From NCBI RefSeq assembly GCF_020905335.1, contig NZ_JAJJMN010000001.1:1054001-1118000 (forward strand): 64,000 nucleotides of DNA, given 5' to 3'. This stretch comes from Flavobacterium lipolyticum (lineage in GTDB: Bacteria; Bacteroidota; Bacteroidia; Flavobacteriales; Flavobacteriaceae). The translations under genes and the position numbers were made by a program. Positions 6,457 through 48,835 of the stretch are shown one piece after another (position 1 is the first letter of the stretch; each line of letters begins with the position of its first letter). The notes beneath the pieces are model-generated. The model saw only the letters and a list, made by a program, of their open reading frames with translations, was not told the DNA's origin and ran no database searches.

Positions 6457-6792
6457 TTGTTTTTTGGTTAATTTTTTTGCCTACTCTTGCGATTTTCGGC
6501 TTCCTCGATTATTATTTTAACAGGAAATTTTTAGCTAACACCCTGTATTTATTGGCTTCACAAACTTTTTTTATAAATTATTTTCTTACCGTAAACATAG
6601 CTATAAAAACAAGATTTACAAATGTTAAACTGTATTTTTTACACGAAAATTCGCCCCAAAAACCTTTGCCTGTTTTTCGTCTTAATTACCTTACGTTTTC
6701 TAATAAAATACAAATTATTTTGGATGGCAACATTTTAGCTAACCTTCCCTTTCTACTCTCGAAAACCAATAGATTTTTTGATTTTGAGCTGA
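6457..6792. other. AT-rich intergenic region
   Basis: Very AT-rich spacer between argS and the upstream end of the 5746-6456 gene. It should hold the leftward promoter of the latter, but no clean TANNTTTG element is visible. A 111-codon rightward ORF covers it and even runs into the argS terminator; it has no family features and is judged spurious. Confidence 0.5.
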
Positions 6793-8668: not shown

Positions 8669-8953
8669 CTGCTTATTCACCAATTACAGAAAATCAAAAA
8701 CATATTAAATCGAATAAAGCGGTTCTAATTTCTTAAAAAACCTCCCCATTTAAGTGTTAAAATTATGCAAAAACCAAAACGCTAACCCATTATAAAACAG
8801 ACGATCTTACGGAAGAAATATTTTTTTTCACTTTTTTCTGTAACATATCCTTAGCAAACGAGTCTTAATAGAGACTTCAAATTAGTTTTGAGGACAAAAA
8901 ACAAAAACAAAATAACAATCATCATCAATCCATCAAAAAATCATTATTGCATT

Positions 8954-11368
8954 ATGAAACTAAAATTCTTTCTGTTCGTATTACTGGGTGTAATGACAAC
9001 AGCAAATGCACAGAACTCAGGAAGTGTTTCCGGAAAAATTACTGAAAAATCAAACAGCGCTCCTATTTCTTATGCCACCATCTCGGTTAAAGAGAACGGA
9101 AAAGTAGTCGCAGGAGTTAATTCTGATGATCACGGAGATTTCTCTATCAAAAATCTGGCTTTAAAAAGTTATACTATCGAAATTCAATATATTGGATTTC
9201 GTAAATATGTAGGCTCTTTACTTTTAAGTGATAACAAAAAAACGGCTACCATTAATGTATCGCTTGAAGAAGAAGCTACTCAGCTTAAAGGAGTGAACAT
9301 TGTAAGTGAGCGTTCGACAATCGAGCAAAAAATTGACCGAAAAGTAATTACTGTCGGAAAAGATTTAACTACTGCCGGAGCTTCTGCCTCTGACATCATG
9401 AACAACATTCCCTCTGTAAACGTAGATCAGGACGGAAAACTTTCGCTTCGCGGAAATGATAACGTTCGTGTATTGATCGACGGAAGACCTTCAAACATTG
9501 ATCCTGCTCAGTTGTTGAAACAAATTCCATCAACGTCAATCAAAAAAATTGAGTTGATTACCAACCCAAGTGCCAAGTACAATCCGGAAGGAATGTCTGG
9601 TATCATCAACATCATCTTACACAAAAATACCAATACCGGTTTCAACGGAAGTTACAGTGGGGGAATTACTTTTGGAGAAGTAGCAAAATACAATCAGTCA
9701 TTAGATTTGAACTACAAGACAGGAAAAGTAAATTTCTTTGGAAACGTAGGACAAAATTTTGGAACTTATTACAATGATGGTTTCATCAACAGATACGATC
9801 AGGACATTCGTCAAAAAATTGATGTTGTGAACGAAAATGATTCTTACTTGTATAAAATCGGGATGGATTATTTTATCAATGATCACAATACGATCTCTTT
9901 TTATACCAATCAAAACAAATCAAACGGAAAGTTTTTTGTAGACACCAATATTGATTACAGCAATGTAAGCAGTTCTGATATTGCTAACATGTTACAAAAA
10001 TCAAAATATACTGGTCCGGATAACGTAGGAACTTATAATTTAGCTTACAAACACATCTTTAAAAAAGAAGGTCATACCCTAGATATTGAAGGAAACTATA
10101 GCGACAATAAAGAAACCCAAAATGCAGGTTTTGACACGCAAATAAGAAAAAAAGACAATACTTTAGACAATCAGTCTTATAACGATTATATTGCCGGCAC
10201 TCGTAAACTAAGTACTTTAAACATTGATTACGTAAATCCATTAAACGACAAAACGACTCTTGAAGCAGGTGCCGAGGCCAGAATTACAAAAACAGATAAC
10301 GATTATATCACCGGAAATCCGTTAGCAGCACTTCCCGTTTCTAATTATACTTATGATACTGATATTTATTCTGCTTATGTAACATTCGGACAGAAATTCA
10401 AAAAATTCAGTTATCAATTAGGAGCTCGTTTCGAAAGTTATAAAGTGGTTGCGAATTTAAATCATGGTCTTGACAAATTCAATGACGATTACATTACGTT
10501 ATACCCGTCAGCATATTTGACTTACAATCTGAATGAGAAAAATACGTTACAGTTAAGCTACAGCCGTCGTGTAGACCGTCCGAGTTTAGAACAGACAAAA
10601 CCTATTCGTGAGTTTTCTACTCCTTTAATTACAGCATTAGGAAATCCTGAATTAAGACCTCAGTTTACGAATTCTGTTGAAGTAAATTATACTAAAACTT
10701 TCGAAAAAGGAAGCTTTACTACAGGTGTTTTTGTGAGAAGCATCAACGACCAAATCAGCAGAGTTTTACTTCCGGACGATACAGATCCAAGTGGTAACAA
10801 ACAAATCCTGACGTATGCCAACTTTGACCGTAATACCTCTTATGGTTTTGAAGCTTCTTTCACTTATAAAATTGCAAAATGGTGGGACATTTCACCATCT
10901 ATTGACTTTTCAAGCATTAACCAACAAGGTATCGTGTTTGTATACGATCCTGTAACTCAAAAAAGCAGTCCGCTGGAAAGAAAAATCACAGTAGGTGCTT
11001 TCAACGGACGTATGAATTCTAACTTTAAAGTAAACAAACGTTTAAGTTTCTTATTATTCGGATTTTACAGAGGAGAAGTTGAAGGTCTTCAAAATAACAG
11101 CCATGCCATGTATAAAATGGACATGGGATCCCGTTATACCTTGTTAAACAATAAAATGAACATCAGTTTACGTTTTAACGATGTGTTCAATACAATGAAA
11201 TACGCTTTTGATTCTCAGTATCCTTATTCACACTCAGGGCAATTTACATGGGAGAGCCAAACAGTTTACCTAGGGTTAACTTACAACTTTGGAGGTGCTA
11301 AAATCAAAAACCTGCAACGTAAACAAAGAGAAGACAACACCAATAAAGGTGGAGGCGGATTGTTCTAA
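8954..11368 (+). CDS. TonB-dependent outer-membrane beta-barrel protein (copy 1)
   Basis: An 804-residue outer-membrane protein. I chose the ATG at 8954 because it begins a standard signal peptide (MKLKFFLFVLLGVMTTANAQ); a longer frame from a TTG at 8888 adds no sensible N-terminus. Residues about 24-110 form a carboxypeptidase-regulatory-like beta-sandwich ('GSVSGKITEKSNSAPISYAT'). A TonB plug follows at about 115-235 ('LSLRGNDNVRVLIDGRPSN', 'NPEGMSGIINIIL'), then the family-3 outer-membrane barrel with 'FSYQLGARFESY' and 'LSYSRRVDRPSLEQ'. A Gly-rich tail ends the protein. The substrate is unknown. It has a same-length tandem paralogue directly downstream. No SusD partner is present, so a polysaccharide-utilisation role is unlikely. 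Confidence 0.9.
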   Translation: MKLKFFLFVLLGVMTTANAQNSGSVSGKITEKSNSAPISYATISVKENGKVVAGVNSDDHGDFSIKNLALKSYTIEIQYIGFRKYVGSLLLSDNKKTATINVSLEEEATQLKGVNIVSERSTIEQKIDRKVITVGKDLTTAGASASDIMNNIPSVNVDQDGKLSLRGNDNVRVLIDGRPSNIDPAQLLKQIPSTSIKKIELITNPSAKYNPEGMSGIINIILHKNTNTGFNGSYSGGITFGEVAKYNQSLDLNYKTGKVNFFGNVGQNFGTYYNDGFINRYDQDIRQKIDVVNENDSYLYKIGMDYFINDHNTISFYTNQNKSNGKFFVDTNIDYSNVSSSDIANMLQKSKYTGPDNVGTYNLAYKHIFKKEGHTLDIEGNYSDNKETQNAGFDTQIRKKDNTLDNQSYNDYIAGTRKLSTLNIDYVNPLNDKTTLEAGAEARITKTDNDYITGNPLAALPVSNYTYDTDIYSAYVTFGQKFKKFSYQLGARFESYKVVANLNHGLDKFNDDYITLYPSAYLTYNLNEKNTLQLSYSRRVDRPSLEQTKPIREFSTPLITALGNPELRPQFTNSVEVNYTKTFEKGSFTTGVFVRSINDQISRVLLPDDTDPSGNKQILTYANFDRNTSYGFEASFTYKIAKWWDISPSIDFSSINQQGIVFVYDPVTQKSSPLERKITVGAFNGRMNSNFKVNKRLSFLLFGFYRGEVEGLQNNSHAMYKMDMGSRYTLLNNKMNISLRFNDVFNTMKYAFDSQYPYSHSGQFTWESQTVYLGLTYNFGGAKIKNLQRKQREDNTNKGGGGLF

Positions 11369-11403: not shown

Positions 11404-11440
11404 AAAAGCCCGGAGTTTGCCAACTTCGGGCTTTTTTTTA
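11404..11440 (+). terminator. terminator after receptor copy 1
   Basis: Stem AGCCCGGAGTT / AACTTCGGGCT with TGCC loop and a T8 tail, 35 nt after the stop codon. Confidence 0.93.
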
Positions 11441-11753
11441 TGGATATTTGGCACATTTAGTTAAAATTGAATCGCTGTTTTTATTCCTGCCATACTTACA
11501 ATAATAAGACACGCCTCCCGTGTTACCTCCTTATTCTACTGAAGAAAATGAAAATCCATCCGGAAGCTAAACCTACAAATTGTTAAAATTATCAAAAATT
11601 CAAAAACTAATTTACTCTAAAACAGCGCATCACAAAAAAGACATTTCTGATTTTAATTTTTACTGTAACATCGGATTGAAAAGACGGTCTCTAGTGATAC
11701 ATTTTGAAGTATTTCAAAAAGAAACAATCATCAATCAAATCAATCACATGTTC
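11441..11753. other. intergenic region between the receptor paralogues
   Basis: Promoter and leader of receptor copy 2. The last 30 nt (AACAATCATCAATCAA at about 11724-11739) resemble the leader of copy 1 (AACAATCATCATCAAT at about 8914-8929), so the duplication included the 5' untranslated region. No exact TANNTTTG element, RNA gene or other ORF was seen. Confidence 0.5.
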
Positions 11754-14168
11754 ATGAAATTAAAATTACTTTTATTAGTCTTACTGACTACAATGACAAC
11801 TCTGCAGGCACAAACTTCCGGAACTGTTTCTGGAAAAGTTACCGAAAAATCAAACCATGCTCCTATTTCTTATGCTACAGTTTCGCTTAAAGACAATGGA
11901 AAAATTGTCTTAGGAGTTAACACTGATGATAACGGCGATTTTACCATTAAAAATCTGGCTTTAAAAAATTACACGATTGAAATTCAATATATCGGATTTA
12001 AGAAATACACGGGATCTGTTATTTTAAGTGAGGATCAAAAAGAGGCTAGTCTTAAAATTGCTCTTGAAGAAGAAGCGACACAACTTAAAGGGGTTAATGT
12101 TATTAGCGAACGCTCAACCATTGAGCAAAAACTGGATCGAAAAGTAATCACAGTCGGTAAAGACCTGACCACTGCCGGAGCTACAGCTTCTGAGATTATG
12201 AATAACATTCCATCTGTCAATGTAGATCAAAACGGAAAAATTTCGCTTCGCGGAAATGATAATGTCCGAGTATTGATTGACGGAAGACCCAGTAATATTG
12301 ATCCTGCTCAATTACTAAAACAAATCCCGTCAACTTCTATCAAAAAAATTGAGCTAATTACCAATCCGAGTGCCAAATATAATCCGGAAGGAATGTCGGG
12401 AATCATCAACATTATTTTACTTAAAAATACCAATATAGGTTTCAACGGAAGTTACGGCGGAGGAATCACTTTTGGGGAAGCTACCAAACACAATCAATCG
12501 CTGAATTTGAATTACAAAAACGGAAAAGTAAATTTTTATGGAAATGCCGGTCAAAATTTAGGAACCTATTTTTTCGACAGTTCTCTTCAAAGATTCGATC
12601 AGGATCTTTATCAAAAAATAGACTTTAAATCGAATGCCGACTCTCATCTGTATAAAATCGGAATGGATTATTTCGTTGACGCACAGAATACGATTTCTTT
12701 CTACACGAATCAAAGCAAATACAATCAGGACGTATTTGTTGACGCTAATATCAACTACAACAATAATCCTGAAATCAGCAACATCTCGCAAAATTCCAGA
12801 TACTTCGGCCCTCAAAAAATGGAAACTTATAATCTGGCTTACAAACATCTCTTTAAAAAAGAAGGCCACACTTTAGATTTTGAAGGAAACTTCAGTAAAT
12901 ACAATGCCTCGCAACAAGCCCATTTTGACACCCAAAACAGTGCTCCTGACAACACTGTCAAAAATGTAAATTATACAGATTTAAACAAAAGTCATCGTAA
13001 ACTAAATACATTTAATGTAGATTATGTTAATCCGTTGGACGAAAAAACAACTTTGGAATTAGGTGCCGAAGCCAGAATCACAAAATCAGCAAATGATTAT
13101 GCCAGAATAAACCCTGCTAACCCAACCGAGGATCAGCTGCTCTATTACACTTACGATACAGATATCTACTCGGCTTATGTAACATTCGGTCAGAAATTCA
13201 AAAAATTCAGTTATCAATTAGGCGCACGTTTTGAAAGCTACAAAGCAGCTGCCAGTTTTAATCATGGTCAGGATACGTTTAATGACGATTATATCACGCT
13301 ATATCCATCTGCTCATTTTACTTATAATTTAAATGAGAAAAACACCATACAATTGAGTTATAGCCGTCGTGTAGATCGCCCGAGTTTAGAACAAACAAGA
13401 CCTATTCGTGAGTTTTCGACACCCATGGTAACGACATTGGGGAATCCTGAATTAAGACCTCAATTCACTAATTCTGTAGAGATAAATTACACTAAGACCT
13501 TAGAAAAAGGGAGTTTAAATTTGGGAATTTATGCCAGAGGTATCAACGATCAGATCAGCAGAGTCATAGATACGGATTATAATGAGGCAGTGGGCAACAA
13601 ACTAATCGTATCTTATACCAATTTTGATCATAATACGGCTTATGGATTTGAAGCTTCTTTTAATTATAAAATCACAAAATGGTGGGATATCTCGCCGTCG
13701 ATTGACTATTCAAGTATCAATCAACGAGGTATTGTTTTTTCATTAAACCCGATCACAAACACAGGAACGCCAATCGATCGAAAAATTACAGTTTCTGCTT
13801 TAACCAGTAGAATAAACTCTAATTTTAAAGTCAACAAGCGCATGAGCTTTTTACTATTTGGTCTTTATAATGGGCCAAGTGACGGTCTTCAGGGCAACAG
13901 CCACCAAATGTACAAAATGGACATAGGCACGCGTTATACTTTATTGAACGATAAAATGAATATCAGCCTTCGTTTTAATGATGTTTTCGATACTATGAAA
14001 TATTCTTTCGACACACAATATCCTTACCCGCACTCAGGGCTGAGCACCTGGGAAAGTCAAACGGTTTATTTAGGTCTGACCTACAATTTTGGAGGAGCAA
14101 AAATTAACGGTATGAACCGTAAAAATAGAGAAGAGAACAATATTGGCAGTAGCGGTGGAGTTCTTTAA
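11754..14168 (+). CDS. TonB-dependent outer-membrane beta-barrel protein (copy 2)
   Basis: An 804-residue paralogue of the preceding gene, of identical length. The start at 11754 gives the signal peptide MKLKLLLLVLLTTMTTLQAQ, parallel to copy 1; an ATG two codons earlier (11748) is the alternative. Domain order is the same: carboxypeptidase-regulatory domain, plug, family-3 barrel. The plug (about 115-235) is almost identical to copy 1, while segments about 265-330 and 390-450, expected to be extracellular loops, and the tail differ clearly. That pattern fits duplication followed by divergence of ligand-binding loops. It has its own terminator upstream and downstream and so is probably a separate transcript. 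Substrate unknown. Confidence 0.9.
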   Translation: MKLKLLLLVLLTTMTTLQAQTSGTVSGKVTEKSNHAPISYATVSLKDNGKIVLGVNTDDNGDFTIKNLALKNYTIEIQYIGFKKYTGSVILSEDQKEASLKIALEEEATQLKGVNVISERSTIEQKLDRKVITVGKDLTTAGATASEIMNNIPSVNVDQNGKISLRGNDNVRVLIDGRPSNIDPAQLLKQIPSTSIKKIELITNPSAKYNPEGMSGIINIILLKNTNIGFNGSYGGGITFGEATKHNQSLNLNYKNGKVNFYGNAGQNLGTYFFDSSLQRFDQDLYQKIDFKSNADSHLYKIGMDYFVDAQNTISFYTNQSKYNQDVFVDANINYNNNPEISNISQNSRYFGPQKMETYNLAYKHLFKKEGHTLDFEGNFSKYNASQQAHFDTQNSAPDNTVKNVNYTDLNKSHRKLNTFNVDYVNPLDEKTTLELGAEARITKSANDYARINPANPTEDQLLYYTYDTDIYSAYVTFGQKFKKFSYQLGARFESYKAAASFNHGQDTFNDDYITLYPSAHFTYNLNEKNTIQLSYSRRVDRPSLEQTRPIREFSTPMVTTLGNPELRPQFTNSVEINYTKTLEKGSLNLGIYARGINDQISRVIDTDYNEAVGNKLIVSYTNFDHNTAYGFEASFNYKITKWWDISPSIDYSSINQRGIVFSLNPITNTGTPIDRKITVSALTSRINSNFKVNKRMSFLLFGLYNGPSDGLQGNSHQMYKMDIGTRYTLLNDKMNISLRFNDVFDTMKYSFDTQYPYPHSGLSTWESQTVYLGLTYNFGGAKINGMNRKNREENNIGSSGGVL

Positions 14169-14290: not shown

Positions 14291-14503
14291 TTACTGTTCG
14301 ATCGGTCGAATAATCACCAGATTAGGCATACAAGTCACAATTACTCTTCCTCCAAATTCGAAGCCAAGTTTCTGTAGCCAGTTTCCGCAGAGTTTGATCT
14401 CAGGAACTTTTTTCTGACTGTATTCATTAAATCTCATTTTGGGTTGAATTTTCAGACTACGCACATCCGGGCGTCTGATTGTTGTTCGTTTGTCGTTTCG
14501 CAT
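14291..14503 (-). CDS. SymE-like type I toxin family protein
   Basis: A 70-residue basic protein. The ATG at 14501-14503 is chosen because it starts the conserved block and sits 150 nt downstream of a good promoter element; an in-frame ATG at 14551 lies inside the structured leader. Residues 34-70 contain 'KVPEIKLCGNWLQKLGF', then 'GGRVIVT' and 'NLVIIRPIEQ', the SymE pattern (P-x-I-x-L-x-G-x-WL-x2-x-GF, then a basic beta strand and a hydrophobic L-V-I-I end). E. coli SymE is an SOS-induced AbrB-fold toxin held back by the antisense RNA SymR. Here no antisense gene is evident, but the mRNA leader is structured and can pair with the start codon. Toxicity is inference from family. Confidence 0.78.
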   Translation of the reverse strand: MRNDKRTTIRRPDVRSLKIQPKMRFNEYSQKKVPEIKLCGNWLQKLGFEFGGRVIVTCMPNLVIIRPIEQ

Positions 14504-14553
14504 AAACTTATATTTTTTAAAAAGAGGCCTGACGATGCTGCGAAACGACAAAC
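14488..14553 (-). promoter_or_regulatory. 15-bp inverted repeat enclosing the symE start codon
   Basis: GTTTGTCGTTTCGCA at 14488-14502 (covering the UG of the start codon and the next four codons) has an exact complement at 14539-14553 in the leader. In the mRNA this gives a 15-bp helix with a 36-nt loop that would hide the ribosome-binding region and start codon. The leader arm is shared with helix P3 of the structured element, so the two folds exclude each other. Confidence 0.65.
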
Positions 14554-14611
14554 ATAGTTTGAAGGCATAGGACTTGCACCTACTCTTCGCCAGGCTTTAT
14601 CTTTGATTTTT
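14522..14611 (-). ncRNA. structured leader RNA upstream of symE-like gene, copy A
   Basis: Read on the minus strand this 90-nt segment can fold into P1 (14587-14594 with 14528-14535, 8 bp), P2 (14567-14571 with 14579-14583, 5 bp, 7-nt loop UGCAAGU) and P3 (14557-14561 with 14549-14553). The second copy at 14759-14847 keeps the same helices with compensatory changes (see findings). G-U pairs fit the minus strand only. It sits between the promoter at 14658-14665 and the symE-like start, so it is a 5' leader. No known Rfam family is recognised. Confidence 0.6.
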
Positions 14612-14657
14612 AAATTTGATGAATTGTACATAATTTATATTTAATCGTTTCGCATAT

Positions 14658-14665
14658 CAAATATA
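14658..14665 (-). promoter_or_regulatory. -7 promoter element of the symE-like gene
   Basis: TATATTTG on the minus strand, placing the transcript start near 14650, upstream of the structured leader. In the second repeat unit the corresponding bases are altered. Confidence 0.6.
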
Positions 14666-14747
14666 AGATAATTCTTTCAAAAAAAACACTATTTAAAAAT
14701 CATTTTAATCTATCTAATCTGTGGCTTTAAAAATTTCATCTAACAGA

Positions 14748-14970
14748 TATTTTTAAAAAGAGGCCTGATGATGCCACGAACCAACAAGAGAACTTGTATA
14801 GTACGGGACTTGCACCCGCTCTCCACCAGGTCTTATCTTTGATTACTAAATTAGATAAATTAATCTTGAAAATTCTCTTATATTGATTCGTACATCACAT
14901 ACAAGATGTTTCATTCAAAAAAAATATTTAAGGAATCATTTTAATCTATCTAGTCTGTGACTTAACAAAA
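14748..14970 (-). repeat. tandem repeat unit 2, without its own gene
   Basis: Diverged second copy of the preceding unit. Its -7 element is altered and it leads into unit 1, not into a coding region, so it is either a remnant of a lost symE-like gene or an upstream regulatory copy. Confidence 0.7.
14759..14847 (-). ncRNA. structured leader RNA, copy B
   Basis: Same fold as copy A: P1 (14823-14830 with 14764-14771), P2 (14803-14807 with 14815-14819, same loop UGCAAGU), P3 (14793-14796 with 14785-14788). Helix sequences differ from copy A but pairing is kept. Whether it is transcribed is uncertain. Confidence 0.5.
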
Positions 14971-15704: not shown

Positions 15705-15742
15705 TTGATTGATTTAAAAGTGGCACCAGCTTGATGATGCCA

Positions 15743-15750
15743 AACAAAAA
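15743..15750 (-). promoter_or_regulatory. -7 promoter element of cutC
   Basis: TATTTTTG on the minus strand, 38 nt before the cutC ATG. Confidence 0.55.
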
Positions 15751-15800
15751 TATAAATTAAAAACTGAACGATCAAAGCAAATCAAAGGTTAGAGTAACCA

Positions 15801-16275
15801 TAAAGGCTTCGACTCCGCTCAGCCGGACAATCGTTGTCGCGATCCTCTTGAAACCTAAATATCACCCTGAGTGGAGTCGAAGACTCACAAACCGTAAAGG
15901 CTTCGACTCCGCTCAGCCGGACAAGCGTTGTCGCTATCCTCTTGAAACCCAAATGTCACCCTGAGCAAAGTCGAAGACTCACAAACCGTAAAGGCTTCGA
16001 CTCCGCTCAGCCGGACAAACGTTGTCGCTATCCTCTTGAAACCTAAATGTCACCCTGAGTGGAGTCAAAGGCTCACAAACCGTTAAGGCTTCGACTTCGC
16101 TCAGCCGGACAATCGTTGTCGCAATCCTCTTGAAACCTAAATGTCACCCTGAGCGGAATCGAAGGCTCACAAACCGTTAAGGCTTCGACTCCGCTCAGCC
16201 GGACACTAATTGTAGAAGACAAAAGGCTGCAAACAAAACCCGAGTGCCATCCTGAGCGGAGTCGAAGGCTTATTT
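15801..16275. repeat. 94-bp palindromic repeat array, block 1 (5 units)
   Basis: GGCTTCGACT recurs at 15805, 15899, 15993, 16087 and 16181, a strict 94-bp period. Each unit has a left arm CTTCGACTCCGCTCAG and a right arm CTGAGYGGAGTCGAAG, a 16-bp inverted repeat, plus an inner hairpin GACAA-NCG-TTGTC. The middle of the fifth unit is replaced by unrelated sequence but its right arm (about 16253-16268) is intact. The block stops 5 bp before the GIY-YIG stop codon. Confidence 0.95.
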
Positions 16276-16279
16276 ACCA

Positions 16280-16603
16280 CTAAAGTTTCTTATTAACGTG
16301 GTTCTTATGACTCGTTTCATTTAGACATTCGGCCAGTTGTTTTAAATCATCCCATCTATCGTTTATAATGGCTTCTTTCTTTTTTCTACTCCACCCCTTT
16401 ACTTGTTTTTCGAATGAAATGGCCTGAAGCACATACTTAAAATCAGTATAGAAAACCAGTTCTAAAGGTCTTCTATTAAAAGTATAACACCCCTTATTTA
16501 AACCCGACTTATGCTCATCGAATCTTCTTTCAATATTATTTGTAACTCCGGTGTAATAACTATTATCAGAACATTTAAGGATATAGACATAATACAATTT
16601 CAT
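16280..16603 (-). CDS. GIY-YIG nuclease family protein
   Basis: A 107-residue single-domain GIY-YIG protein. The two short motifs are 'YYVYILKCSD' and 'SYYTGVTNN' (Y-V-Y and Y-T-G in place of GIY and YIG), followed by the helix 'IERRFDEH' with the catalytic Arg and the later 'SFEKQVKGWSRKKKEAI' with the catalytic Glu. The length fits the stand-alone UvrC-N-like family; there is no other domain. Such small proteins are common in flavobacteria and their role is not established. It lies alone between two arrays of a 94-bp palindromic repeat, which is the main hint about its biology. Confidence 0.9.
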   Translation of the reverse strand: MKLYYVYILKCSDNSYYTGVTNNIERRFDEHKSGLNKGCYTFNRRPLELVFYTDFKYVLQAISFEKQVKGWSRKKKEAIINDRWDDLKQLAECLNETSHKNHVNKKL

Positions 16604-16689
16604 AACATATACCTTTTAATTAAACCTAACTAAAAGTAAGAAAAATCTTTTAAAAAATATATACTTATAATATAACTGATTTGCCTATT

Positions 16690-17006
16690 GGAACGTGGGC
16701 TTCGACTCCGCTCAGCCGGACAAGCGTTGTCGCTATCCTCTTGAAGTACAAATGTCACCCTGAGCGGAGTCGAAGGCTCATAAACCGTAAAGGCTTCGAC
16801 TCCGCTCAGCCGGACAAACGTTGTCGCTATCCTCTTGAAACCTAAATGTCACCCTGAGTGGAGTCGAAGGCTCACAAACCGTTAAGGCTTCGACTCCGCT
16901 CAGCCGGACAAACGTTGTCGCTATCCTCTTGAAGTACAAATATCACCCTGAGTGGAGTCGAAGGCTCACAAACCGTAAAGGCTTCGACTTCGCTCAGCCG
17001 GACAAT
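16690..17006. repeat. 94-bp palindromic repeat array, block 2 (3 units and a partial)
   Basis: The same repeat as block 1, in the same orientation: GGCTTCGACT at 16698, 16792, 16886 and 16980, again exactly 94 bp apart. The fourth unit stops after the left arm and GGACAA. Units 1 and 3 carry GAAGTACAAAT where most other units have GAAACCTAAAT. Confidence 0.95.
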
Positions 17007-17012
17007 GCAGTG

Positions 17013-17045
17013 CACAAAAAAACCTGCTCTAAAAAAGAGCAGGCT
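17013..17045 (-). terminator. fabH terminator
   Basis: CCTGCTCT / AGAGCAGG stem and, leftward, a T7 run, 28 nt past the fabH stop. Confidence 0.93.
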
Positions 17046-17072
17046 ATGAAATATAATGCAAGATGAATTAAT

Positions 17073-18080
17073 TTACCACTTAATGATTGCACTTGCCCAG
17101 GTAAAACCACTACCAAAGGCAGCCAGTACAACTGTATCTCCGGATTTGATTTTTCCTTGCTCCCATGCTTCAGTCAAAGCAATCGGAATAGAGGCTGCAG
17201 TAGTATTTCCGTACTTCTGAATATTATTGTGTACCTGATCGTCACTCAATTTGAATTTGTTTTGAATGAATTGTGAAATTCTTAAATTCGCCTGATGAGG
17301 AATCAACATATCAATATCTGAAACCTGTAAACCATTTGCTTCTAATCCTTCATTGATTACTTCAGCAAAACGAACCACTGCATTTTTAAATACAAACTGT
17401 CCATTCATATACGGATAATAACTCTCATCATTAGGATCATTATCTGCTATAATATCGGTTACCCAGCGCGCTCCCATTCCCGGTGCCTGCAGAGCTAGTT
17501 CTTCAGCATGCTGTCCTTCTGAATGCAAATGGGTAGATAAGATTCCTTTGGTCAAATCCTCTTCACGGCTTATAACTGCCGCTCCTGCTCCATCTCCAAA
17601 AATTACCGAAACTCCACGTCCACGAGTAGTCATATCCAGTCCTGTCGAATGTACTTCTGAACCAATTACCAGGATATTTTTATACATTCCGGTTTTGATA
17701 TACTGATCGGCAACCGACAATGCATAAACAAAACCAGAACATTGATTTCTAACATCCAGTGCTCCTACAGTACGTAATCCTAAATCACGCTGTACCAAAA
17801 CTCCAGGTCCTGGAAAATAATAATCCGGACTTAAGGTAGCAAAAACTACAAAATCAATATCTTCTTTGGCGACGCCAGAACGTTCTATAGCAATTTTAGC
17901 TGCTTTTACACCCATTGTAGTTGTGGTATCTTCCCCACGAATAATATGTCTACGCTCCTGAATTCCAGTTCTCTCCTGAATCCATTCGTCATTGGTATCA
18001 ATTATCTTAGACAAATCATCGTTGGTCACAACATTTGAAGGGACATAATATCCTAAGCCCGCTATTTTTGAATGATACAT
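17073..18080 (-). CDS. fabH: 3-oxoacyl-ACP synthase III (FabH)
   Basis: A 335-residue condensing enzyme that starts fatty acid synthesis by joining acetyl- (or branched acyl-) CoA to malonyl-ACP. The catalytic triad is visible: Cys114 in 'VRNQCSGFVYAL', His262 in 'IPHQANLRI' and Asn292 in 'KYGNTTAASIP'. The N-terminal 'TNDEWIQERTGI' is also typical. Bacteroidota often carry more than one FabH; this copy stands alone and not in a plsX-fabH-acc cluster, so it may be the second type. It is monocistronic, with TAAATTTG 33 nt upstream and a strong terminator. Confidence 0.95.
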   Translation of the reverse strand: MYHSKIAGLGYYVPSNVVTNDDLSKIIDTNDEWIQERTGIQERRHIIRGEDTTTTMGVKAAKIAIERSGVAKEDIDFVVFATLSPDYYFPGPGVLVQRDLGLRTVGALDVRNQCSGFVYALSVADQYIKTGMYKNILVIGSEVHSTGLDMTTRGRGVSVIFGDGAGAAVISREEDLTKGILSTHLHSEGQHAEELALQAPGMGARWVTDIIADNDPNDESYYPYMNGQFVFKNAVVRFAEVINEGLEANGLQVSDIDMLIPHQANLRISQFIQNKFKLSDDQVHNNIQKYGNTTAASIPIALTEAWEQGKIKSGDTVVLAAFGSGFTWASAIIKW

Positions 18081-29440: not shown

Positions 29441-29447
29441 CACGTTG

Positions 29448-29521
29448 AGCCGGCGGAGGGACTCGAACCCACGACCTGCTGATTACAAATCAGCTGCTCT
29501 AGCCAACTGAGCTACGCTGGC
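29448..29521 (-). tRNA. tRNA-Thr(UGU), copy 1
   Basis: Complete 74-nt cloverleaf on the minus strand. The anticodon arm is GCTGA-TTTGTAA-TCAGC (anticodon TGT), the T-arm loop TTCGAGT, the D-arm GCTC-AGTTGGCTA-GAGC, the discriminator T. CCA is not encoded. The acceptor stem has an A4-C69 mismatch, and the T stem a T50-T64 mismatch. Confidence 0.97.
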
Positions 29522-29620: not shown

Positions 29621-29625
29621 TGTTG

Positions 29626-29699
29626 AGCCGGCGGAGGGACTCGAACCCACGACCTGCTGATTACAAATCAGCTGCTCTAGCCAACTGAGCTACGCTGGC
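29626..29699 (-). tRNA. tRNA-Thr(UGU), copy 2
   Basis: Identical over all 74 nt to the copy at 29448-29521, including the A4-C69 mismatch. The flanks match only in part (same hairpin downstream, same ~35 nt TCCAAAATAAATCTGC-type spacer upstream), which points to a tandem duplication of gene plus terminator. Confidence 0.97.
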
Positions 29700-47698: not shown

Positions 47699-48835
47699 AT
47701 GAAAAATGTCCTTTTCAAAAAAACACTTTTTAGTTTACTATTATTATCAAGTTTTTTGGGTTACAGCCAAAATGTGCCCTTATCAAAAGAAGCTCAAATA
47801 AGTGTTATTACCTGCGGACTGGGTAATGAAAGCTACTCTTATTTTGGTCATACTGCCATTCGCGTCGCCGATCCGGCGAACACTATTGATGTTGTTTATA
47901 ATTATGGTAATTTTGATTTTAGAACACCCAATTTTGTCGCTAAATTCGCAAAGGGCGATTTACAGTATTTTGTCAGCGTAAGATCGTTTCCTGAGTTTAT
48001 AAACGATTATACTAACGAAAAAAGAAGTGTTTTCGAGCAGGAACTTTTCATCTCTCCAGATTTAAAACAAAAACTTTTTGACAATTTAAATGCAGCCGCA
48101 TTCTCTGAAGAACGATATTATACCTATAAATTTATCGACAAAAACTGTACTTCGATGGTGGTAGATGTCATCAATAAATCTTTAAATGCAAATATTGTAA
48201 CTAAAAAAGGAGATACGGCTGAAACCTACCGATCTATTCTGTTTCCTTACTTCAAAGATCATTTTTATGAGCAGCTGGGAACCAGTATTATTTTCGGAAC
48301 AAAAGTAGACCAGGCAGGTACGAAAATCTTTTTACCCTTTGAATTAAAAAACAGTTTAGAAAAAACTACTTTTCAAAACCAGCCTTTAGTAAGTAAAAGC
48401 AAAACGCTGCTAAGTTTTGAAAAAGAGATTCCAAGCTCATGGTGGAATAATATTTACACTTACCTCCTGCTATTGGCTTTTGTAGTTTTGGCACACCATA
48501 AAGTGGTAGATAAAATATATCTTTTTATCTTATCGTTAATAGGAATCTTTTTTATTACGGTTGGTTTTTATTCCCTTCATCAGGAACTGGCAATGAACTA
48601 TAATGTACTTTTATTAAGTCCGCTTTTATTGGTATTAATCCTCTTTTCGCTCTTAAAAAACAAAAGATGGTCGTATCGATTCGCAGTTCTACATTTACTT
48701 TTTTTGATCGTTTATACCATTTTCATGATCAACAAAGCACACTTCTTTATTGTTCTGCCCATGATCATAACTAGTGGATTTGTTTTGGTGAGAGTCGCTA
48801 TTCGAAATAAAAAACGTATTCCTATTATTATCTAA
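47699..48835 (+). CDS. DUF4105 / Lnb-type protein (putative lipoprotein N-acyltransferase)
   Basis: A 378-residue protein: signal peptide (cleavage near LGYSQ), a periplasmic DUF4105 domain (about 30-190) and four to five transmembrane helices from about 250. The domain has 'VITCGLGNESYSYFGHTAIR' with His51, and 'FIDKNCTSMVVDV' with Cys150, the His/Cys pair expected for a thiol-dependent papain-like enzyme. This family was recently described in Bacteroides as Lnb, acylating the N-terminal Cys of lipoproteins; I state that from memory. Follows the PorV-like gene. Confidence 0.85.
   Translation: MKNVLFKKTLFSLLLLSSFLGYSQNVPLSKEAQISVITCGLGNESYSYFGHTAIRVADPANTIDVVYNYGNFDFRTPNFVAKFAKGDLQYFVSVRSFPEFINDYTNEKRSVFEQELFISPDLKQKLFDNLNAAAFSEERYYTYKFIDKNCTSMVVDVINKSLNANIVTKKGDTAETYRSILFPYFKDHFYEQLGTSIIFGTKVDQAGTKIFLPFELKNSLEKTTFQNQPLVSKSKTLLSFEKEIPSSWWNNIYTYLLLLAFVVLAHHKVVDKIYLFILSLIGIFFITVGFYSLHQELAMNYNVLLLSPLLLVLILFSLLKNKRWSYRFAVLHLLFLIVYTIFMINKAHFFIVLPMIITSGFVLVRVAIRNKKRIPIII

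Follow-up and report, generated by a model that had tools for sequence, protein, structure and literature searches.

A structured RNA upstream of SymE-like toxin genes in Bacteroidota, proposed to act as a C4-like antisense RNA on the same strand

Directly upstream of a symE-like gene of Flavobacterium lipolyticum, and on the same strand, lies a structured RNA with a segment (a') that is complementary to the start of that gene and also to a sense segment (s1) on the other side of the RNA. These complementarities, and the co-variation of the segments involved, recur in most of the elements that we collected. In our judgement the RNA is probably a same-strand antisense RNA that works like the C4 RNA of the phages P1 and P7, and we favour an antisense RNA that is excised from the leader over a cis-regulatory leader. 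The original prediction, which was made for two copies of the element, had overlooked the relation between a' and the gene start, the matching 5' segment s1 and the resemblance to the C4 RNA of phage P1.

Two copies of the RNA and the conservation of its helices

The window, i.e. the whole stretch of DNA that was analysed, comprises 64,000 nt of F. lipolyticum, and all coordinates refer to it. Both RNA copies (A and B) sit in a larger tandem repeat with units of ~236 bp, which include the sequence upstream of the RNA (repeat families D2, D3 and D4; spacing 236-238 nt, identity 75-79%, extending to about 14969). Copy A is directly followed on its 3' side by a 70-codon symE-like gene and copy B by unit A, without a gene of its own.

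14518..14595, minus strand: RNA core of copy A (helices, model match, alignment)
14594-14587/14535-14528, minus strand: P1 of copy A
14583-14579/14571-14567, minus strand: P2 of copy A, with loop TGCAAGT (T-loop hairpin 14583-14567)
14561-14557/14553-14549, minus strand: P3 of copy A
14523-14519, minus strand: T5 tract of copy A
14754..14831, minus strand: RNA core of copy B (helices, model match, alignment)
14830-14823/14771-14764, minus strand: P1 of copy B
14819-14815/14807-14803, minus strand: P2 of copy B, with loop TGCAAGT as in copy A
14797-14793/14788-14784, minus strand: P3 of copy B
14291..14503, minus strand: symE-like gene, 70 aa, start ATG 14503-14501 (PF08845; start set by homologues)

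The three helices were found in both minus-strand copies as originally described, including the paired changes from C-G to U-A at position 6 of P1 and from U-A to C-G and A-U to G-C at positions 2 and 3 of P2. The strand was predicted correctly as well: a model search of both strands matched the two copies on the minus strand, and the outer pair of P2 is G-U in 15 of 22 sequences. Covariation between just two copies is weak evidence. Folded singly, the cores reach z-scores of only -1.47 (A) and -0.89 (B), and P3 of copy A is absent from the minimum-energy fold of the core. It is because of the further homologues, and not of the two copies, that P1 and P2 are settled.

Pairing is indeed maintained in further copies. 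An alignment of 22 sequences, which was fitted to a covariance model (R1) that itself contains P1 and P2 and thus leans towards these helices, shows standard pairs in 98.2% of the P1 and P2 cells. Within it, 11 of the 13 pairs display changes on both sides (52 such cells, counting sequences and not events, with the near-identical pairs winA/L055 and winB/L091 included; 0 of 500 shuffles as good), and pairing falls to no more than 50% when the partner is slid by 1-3 columns. The weakest helix is P3: 76.7% of its cells are paired in a six-sequence alignment, a value that is due in part to a one-base shift of its register between subgroups. By eye, the T-loop of P2 follows the consensus GGUGNRAGUCC, and in one locus that was found through its protein (L062) a GCAA loop takes its place. 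A resemblance of the consensus to cobalamin riboswitches was dropped for want of an Rfam match.

The geometry of P2 is that of a tRNA T-arm, which is what a tRNA fragment would display, and a decayed group II intron or plain chance might be considered along with it. The covariation in 22 homologues, the absence of any match to Rfam intron or tRNA models in the region (E up to 10) and the failure of ARAGORN to find a tRNA there make these origins hardly conceivable. More generally, none of the Rfam families fits the RNA at E values up to 10 in the window region; group II introns, tRNAs and known riboswitches were discarded on this basis. The proposal of a cis-regulatory RNA of an unrecognised family thus holds in as far as the RNA is structured and lacks an Rfam match, and its description as a cis-regulatory leader is probably incomplete.

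The antisense segment, its sense partners and the proposed mechanism

Outside P1 and P2, the features that matter are the antisense segment, its partners s1 and s2 and a promoter box:

14539..14553, minus strand: a' of copy A, antisense (3' arm of P3 plus J3/1; complementarity tests)
14488..14502, minus strand: s2, pairing partner of a', spanning the start of symE from the U of AUG to the end of codon 5 (perfect 15-nt complement)
14641..14654, minus strand: s1 of copy A, sense, near the presumed 5' end of the transcript, complementary to a' (0/500 shuffles as good)
14658..14665, minus strand: -7 promoter box TATATTTG of copy A (box position test)
14775..14792, minus strand: a' of copy B, with no matching gene start after it
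14875..14892, minus strand: s1 of copy B, complementary to a' of copy B (duplex tests; minimum-energy fold)
14896..14903, minus strand: degenerate -7 box of copy B, TGTATGTG, with 2 mismatches

Duplexes were evaluated in a gapped test with 200 dinucleotide shuffles per element and, for a larger set, in an ungapped test with 500 mononucleotide shuffles, in which at most 10 shuffles as good were allowed. In copy A, a' and s2 form 15 perfect base pairs at the AUG of symE, a result equalled by 1 of 500 shuffles in the ungapped and by 0 of 200 in the dinucleotide test. Among the elements with upstream sequence (L058 has none and is outside the count), 16 of 20 reached at most 1/200 for s1 and a' in the gapped test, the others being L110 (4 of 200), L060 (6), L103 (17) and L106 (52). 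In that test at most two of the upstream regions of the 19 other elements matched the pairing of the element's own region, and therefore s1 and a' co-vary. The ungapped test was passed by 22 of 29 elements; it was failed by L061 and L102, which had passed the gapped test, and by L106, L116, L117, L122 and L215. Taken together, L106, L117 and L122 lack a convincing s1 or have none, and that of L116 and L215 is marginal.

For a' and s2 the corresponding numbers are 12 of 21 elements (at most 1/200, gapped) and 17 of 30 (ungapped, over 60 nt past the core, which leaves the gene starts of L105 and L107 beyond reach). The gapped misses are L062 (7 of 200), L108 (8), copy B (18), L060 (36), L106 (96), L107 (123), L109 (129), L103 (159) and L104 (184), and the match of L110 falls inside the gene, away from its start. 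Complementarity to s2 was absent in both tests from copy B, L060, L103, L104, L106, L107 and L109 and was marginal in L062, L108, L188 and L248. In 14 of 30 elements the ungapped duplex (at most 10/500) reaches the start AUG of a frame that is 50 codons long or longer. The sequence of a' varies by lineage (e.g. GTCGTTTCGCA, GGGTGTTCGCA, GGATGTACGCA and GTTTGGTGTCA), and s1 and s2 change along with it in most homologues, though not in all, which we read as a sign of selection on the pairing.

The s1 segment of copy A is located just downstream of the -7 box TATATTTG, of the Bacteroidota type TAnnTTTG. Directly before s1, a box with at most one mismatch is present in 22 of 29 elements, where 6.5 would be expected on the basis of these loci; the seven others are copy B, L061, L102, L104, L106, L117 and L122. 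On the 3' side, 18 of 30 elements, including both window copies, have a run of four or more U in the 12 nt that follow P1.

From these patterns we infer transcription, repression of translation, the order of events, cleavage by RNase P, the 3' end and action in trans as follows. A single promoter would give rise to a transcript that starts near s1 and continues through the RNA (P1, P2, P3 and a') into symE. By covering s2, which spans the symE start from the U of AUG to the end of codon 5, a' would block initiation, such that the toxin would normally be silent. In the unprocessed transcript s1 would capture a' first, until RNase P cuts at the 5' foot of P1 and so detaches s1, leaving a' available. 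A tRNA-like handle for RNase P might be provided by the T-loop hairpin next to P1. Where present, the U-rich tail after P1 would set the 3' end, and the mature RNA of ~75-80 nt would target the mRNAs of symE both in cis and in trans. The handle is a guess, because P2 is a UUCG hairpin in the C4 RNA of phage P1, a T-loop hairpin here and closed by a GCAA loop in L062. A passage in PMC11143913 has RNase P reading a T-loop 12 bp from the cut; the 8 bp of P1 plus the 5 bp of P2 come close to this distance, which is only a hint.

A purely cis-acting leader with two states, a kinetic timer or riboswitch from which no separate RNA is made, has to be weighed against this scheme. Pairing of s1 with a' would keep the start codon open and pairing of a' with s2 would close it, with P1/P2 and the T-loop sensing something. 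For both copies the s1:a' duplex is part of the minimum-energy fold of the leader (142-144 nt; z = -2.2 and -2.9), so that s1, P3 and s2 compete for a'; s1, s2 and the 5' arm of P3 are mutually exclusive partners, s1 is made first, and among the 13 SymE elements with both regions the stronger partner in the gapped test is s2 in six and s1 in seven, and therefore the two states are similar in strength. All of this would suit such a switch. Yet the attached genes (SymE, an antirepressor, guanylate kinase, RlaP and proteins of unknown function) have no pathway in common, L062 has GCAA in place of the T-loop, and copy B has retained s1 and a' without a target gene. Considering both sides, we regard the two-state leader as rather unlikely.

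The U runs could also point to a transcription attenuator, in which P1 and the U-tract terminate most transcripts and pairing of s1 with a' prevents P1 from closing. With 12 of 30 elements lacking such a run, and with no explanation offered for why a' copies the gene start, attenuation appears improbable. A leader peptide encoded through the RNA, the translation of which would control symE, is more doubtful still and was rejected by eye: the ATG after s1 of copy A opens a frame of 59 codons through the RNA and some homologues are open as well, but the frame differs between lineages, with early stops in L060, L061, L102 and L110, and is not conserved.

Under the antisense reading, copy B would be a second, diverged unit that has lost its own target. 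The target gene beside it is absent, and s1 is present while s2 is not. Its s1:a' duplex is retained (9/500 shuffles as good in the ungapped and 1/200 in the gapped test), and in its relative L091 the -7 box reads TGTATTTG. The a' of copy B fits gene starts that encode Met-Arg-Thr-Asn-Lys, the residues that open a 90% identical SymE of Flavobacterium sp. CFS9 (P0001; judged from the protein sequence alone). A search of its own genome for a second target of this segment gave 12 matches with at most two mismatches, equal to the reversed-pattern control (12); the sole exact match is copy B itself, one match with a single mismatch lies in an open frame and not at a gene start, and the other 10 have two mismatches. 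Copy B may be read in two ways, as a remnant or as an orphan RNA by which incoming alleles would be silenced.

Distribution of the RNA and the genes behind it

The product of the gene behind copy A matches SymE_toxin (PF08845; 8.6e-11, 42.2 bits, cut-off 29) and remains below the NCBIfam cut-off for the E. coli equivalog (25 versus 132 bits). A search of genome contigs with the SymE protein yielded 10 loci, of which eight (L055-L062) have the RNA directly upstream of symE. The Flavobacterium relative UGB4466 possesses a single copy of kind A (L055), and F. tructae both kinds, on two contigs (G159 and L056/G635 are apparently one F. tructae assembly). When 150 genomes of the genus were searched by blastn for close copies, the element was recovered from one, namely that of the window; the F. 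tructae relative emerged in a larger draw.

The covariance-model search that had been suggested did uncover homologues, in Chitinophagaceae, Cytophagales, Flavobacterium and viral contigs. With R1, built on six sequences, matches were obtained in 14 of 344 Chitinophagaceae genomes (the family of Ferruginibacter), at 16 places in all. Of 395 genomes sampled across the phylum, 19 gave matches at E <= 0.1, strong in two alone (the own genome and G159); the six weak places that were inspected out of 21 (L067, L068, L069, L070, L072 and L086) were chance-like. A second model (R2), comprising P1 and P2 only, matched 14 of 234 Chitinophagaceae genomes, mostly those already found with R1, and 6 of 194 genomes of the Cytophagales (the order of Agaribacillus). 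Inspection of the new R2 places retained L113, L115, L116, L117, L120 and L122 and discarded L114, L118, L119 and L121 as chance.

Three copies were recovered from viral contigs (L188, 5e-10; L215, 4e-13; L248, 8e-7). They were obtained with loose DNA patterns for phage copies, which returned L188 as the convincing model match among 80 loci and L215 and L248 among 92, the matches being mostly chance. L272 was judged to be chance on inspection and L285 and L295 score the same; L243-L247, which came from a DNA pattern, were dropped on inspection. No match to the element was found by blastn of phages and plasmids, nor any match to SymE in a protein search of viral contigs. Considering its presence in few genomes plus viral contigs, the element is sporadic, as mobile cargo would be.

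SymE is the most common gene behind the RNA, as in 10 of the 16 Chitinophagaceae places found with R1, a share that is biased upward since all models began from SymE copies. The predicted link to SymE is thus frequent and at the same time not exclusive, as the RNA has spread to other genes: a guanylate kinase in L105 (by Pfam) and L107 (by similarity to the L105 gene), RlaP in L106, a P22_AR_N antirepressor in L113, related small proteins without Pfam or PHROG match in L108 and L115 (one genome), an 88-residue protein in L215 and proteins without database match in L109 and L248. No clear gene follows the RNA in L188, L120 and L103. In L105 and L107, from two genomes, the RNA precedes the guanylate kinase gene by ~67 nt and s1 pairs well; pairing at the gene start is two-part in L105 and weak in L107. 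The cassette of L215 stands before a 1020-codon gene, with an inverted repeat and a T-run upstream, which is the layout of a phage cargo gene. Read from the open reading frames alone, the 1020-codon gene looks like a tail tape-measure gene and the gene beside L248 like an integrase.

The idea that SymE in general needs this RNA was rejected, with no convincing model match at any of the 28 loci (L027-L054) that were covered out of 37 other same-genus SymE matches. L032, L034 and L037, same-genus SymE loci of other species, have very similar DNA at the match, without an RNA hit. A degenerate SymE cassette (L122; G1124:C7:234808-234880) shares its contig with the fuller L116; it has lost the 5' arm of P1 and the start codon, and the complementarity between a' and s2 is still nearly perfect.

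We tentatively extend the proposal to a class of RNAs that would occur throughout the Bacteroidota: C4-like antisense RNAs on the strand of their target, with a T-loop as the handle for processing. They might constitute a portable cassette of promoter, antisense RNA and start codon that silences any gene placed behind it, and orphans such as copy B might be trans-acting immunity RNAs against incoming symE alleles that start with Met-Arg-Thr-Asn-Lys. If so, the silenced genes would be SymE toxins, antirepressors and phage cargo genes.

Relation to C4 and other antisense systems, and the surroundings in the window

Antisense RNAs that are cut from the transcript of their own target are known from P1/P7 and relatives in Proteobacteria, according to the portions of PMC2864571 and PMC5320573 that deal with C4. 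The latter describes excision by host RNase P at the 5' end of stem P1, with b' partly occluding the ribosome-binding site and a' conferring specificity, and names Proteobacteria orders and Caudovirales in the part on taxa; the c4 antisense RNA is tabulated for Proteobacteria and phages in PMC2864571. The phage P1 record AF234172 is annotated in the order promoter, a1, b1, C4, a2, b2, icd and ant1, with putative a1 TTGACAG, b1 GTTAGTGC, a2 TTGACAG and b2 GTTAGTGA, and C4 RNA at 48343-48419.

The likeness extends over several levels. Both RNAs are located upstream of, and on the same strand as, their target, with one promoter for RNA and target (here inferred from the layout), and the order is that of promoter, upstream sense copy, RNA and downstream sense copy at the target start. 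In both, two sense copies flank the RNA (here s1 passes the ungapped test in 22 of 29 homologues, and 17 of 30 pass it for s2). The Rfam fold of C4 has a closing stem P1 and two inner hairpins, as does the present RNA, in which P1 and P2 are strong and P3 is weaker, and the antisense segments occupy parts of the second hairpin and of the final joining strand. The antirepressor of L113, the only homologue with such a gene identified, is of the kind that C4 controls, and the copies in viral contigs also favour a C4-like reading. On the other hand, P1 is shorter here and P2 is a T-loop hairpin instead of the UUCG hairpin of phage P1 C4, one continuous antisense segment of ~10-18 nt replaces two of 7-8, and s2 covers the start codon, whereas C4 targets the sequence before it. 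The target in the window is SymE, the commonest attached gene, and not a phage antirepressor operon, and the hosts are Bacteroidota, as opposed to the Proteobacteria and Caudovirales named for C4 in the relevant part of PMC5320573. The C4 model RF01695 had no match in the window region (E = 10) or in six loci and exceeded its cut-off in 0 of 9 genomes, and R2 did not match phage P1 C4. As the models fail both ways, we call the RNA C4-like and not C4, without claiming common descent.

The pairing of a SymE-family protein with an antisense segment against the 5' part of symE is shared with the type I toxin-antitoxin system SymE/SymR. As stated in the pertinent part of PMC1891008, the gene of E. 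coli SymR lies on the opposite strand, with its promoter inside symE, and the RNA is antisense to the 5' part of this gene. The a' segment, in contrast, lies upstream on the same strand. In type I toxin mRNAs of the hok/aapA kind alternative long-range pairings hide the start, as proposed for the symE leader; their antitoxin is a separate RNA from the opposite strand, and they are without the T-loop three-way junction of the RNA described here.

In the main texts of the open-access literature we found, among the papers listed, no description of such an RNA with SymE, with guanylate kinase or in Bacteroidetes, and for C4 antisense RNA together with Bacteroidetes only PMC2864571 matched. The structured-RNA candidate sets of PMC8040213 were checked by main-text terms only. 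If the antisense reading is true, the logic of C4 would operate in another phylum, mainly on a toxin gene, outside Rfam and with a different structural core, and an antitoxin would be supplied for a subset of the Bacteroidota SymE genes. It would also provide a computable rule, in which a' predicts the start of the target, making targets and orphan immunity RNAs testable, and shared ancestry versus convergence with C4 would become a clear question.

Some further features of the window were recorded. Tandem repeats of 94 bp with the inverted-repeat core CCTGAGCGGAGTCGAAGG (15711-17091) flank a GIY-YIG open reading frame (16280-16603; PF01541). Adjacent genes at 8888-11368 and 11580-14168 encode similar outer-membrane proteins, apparently the result of a tandem duplication, the product of the latter with OMP beta-barrel and TonB plug domains; a model match between the two (11408-11440) was rejected as a short hairpin with a T-run. 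A DUF805b RNA match (Rfam RF02914, 38.6 bits) is located at 6478-6509 on the minus strand, and two tRNA-Thr (TGT) genes with equal scores occur 178 bp apart at 29447-29521 and 29625-29699.
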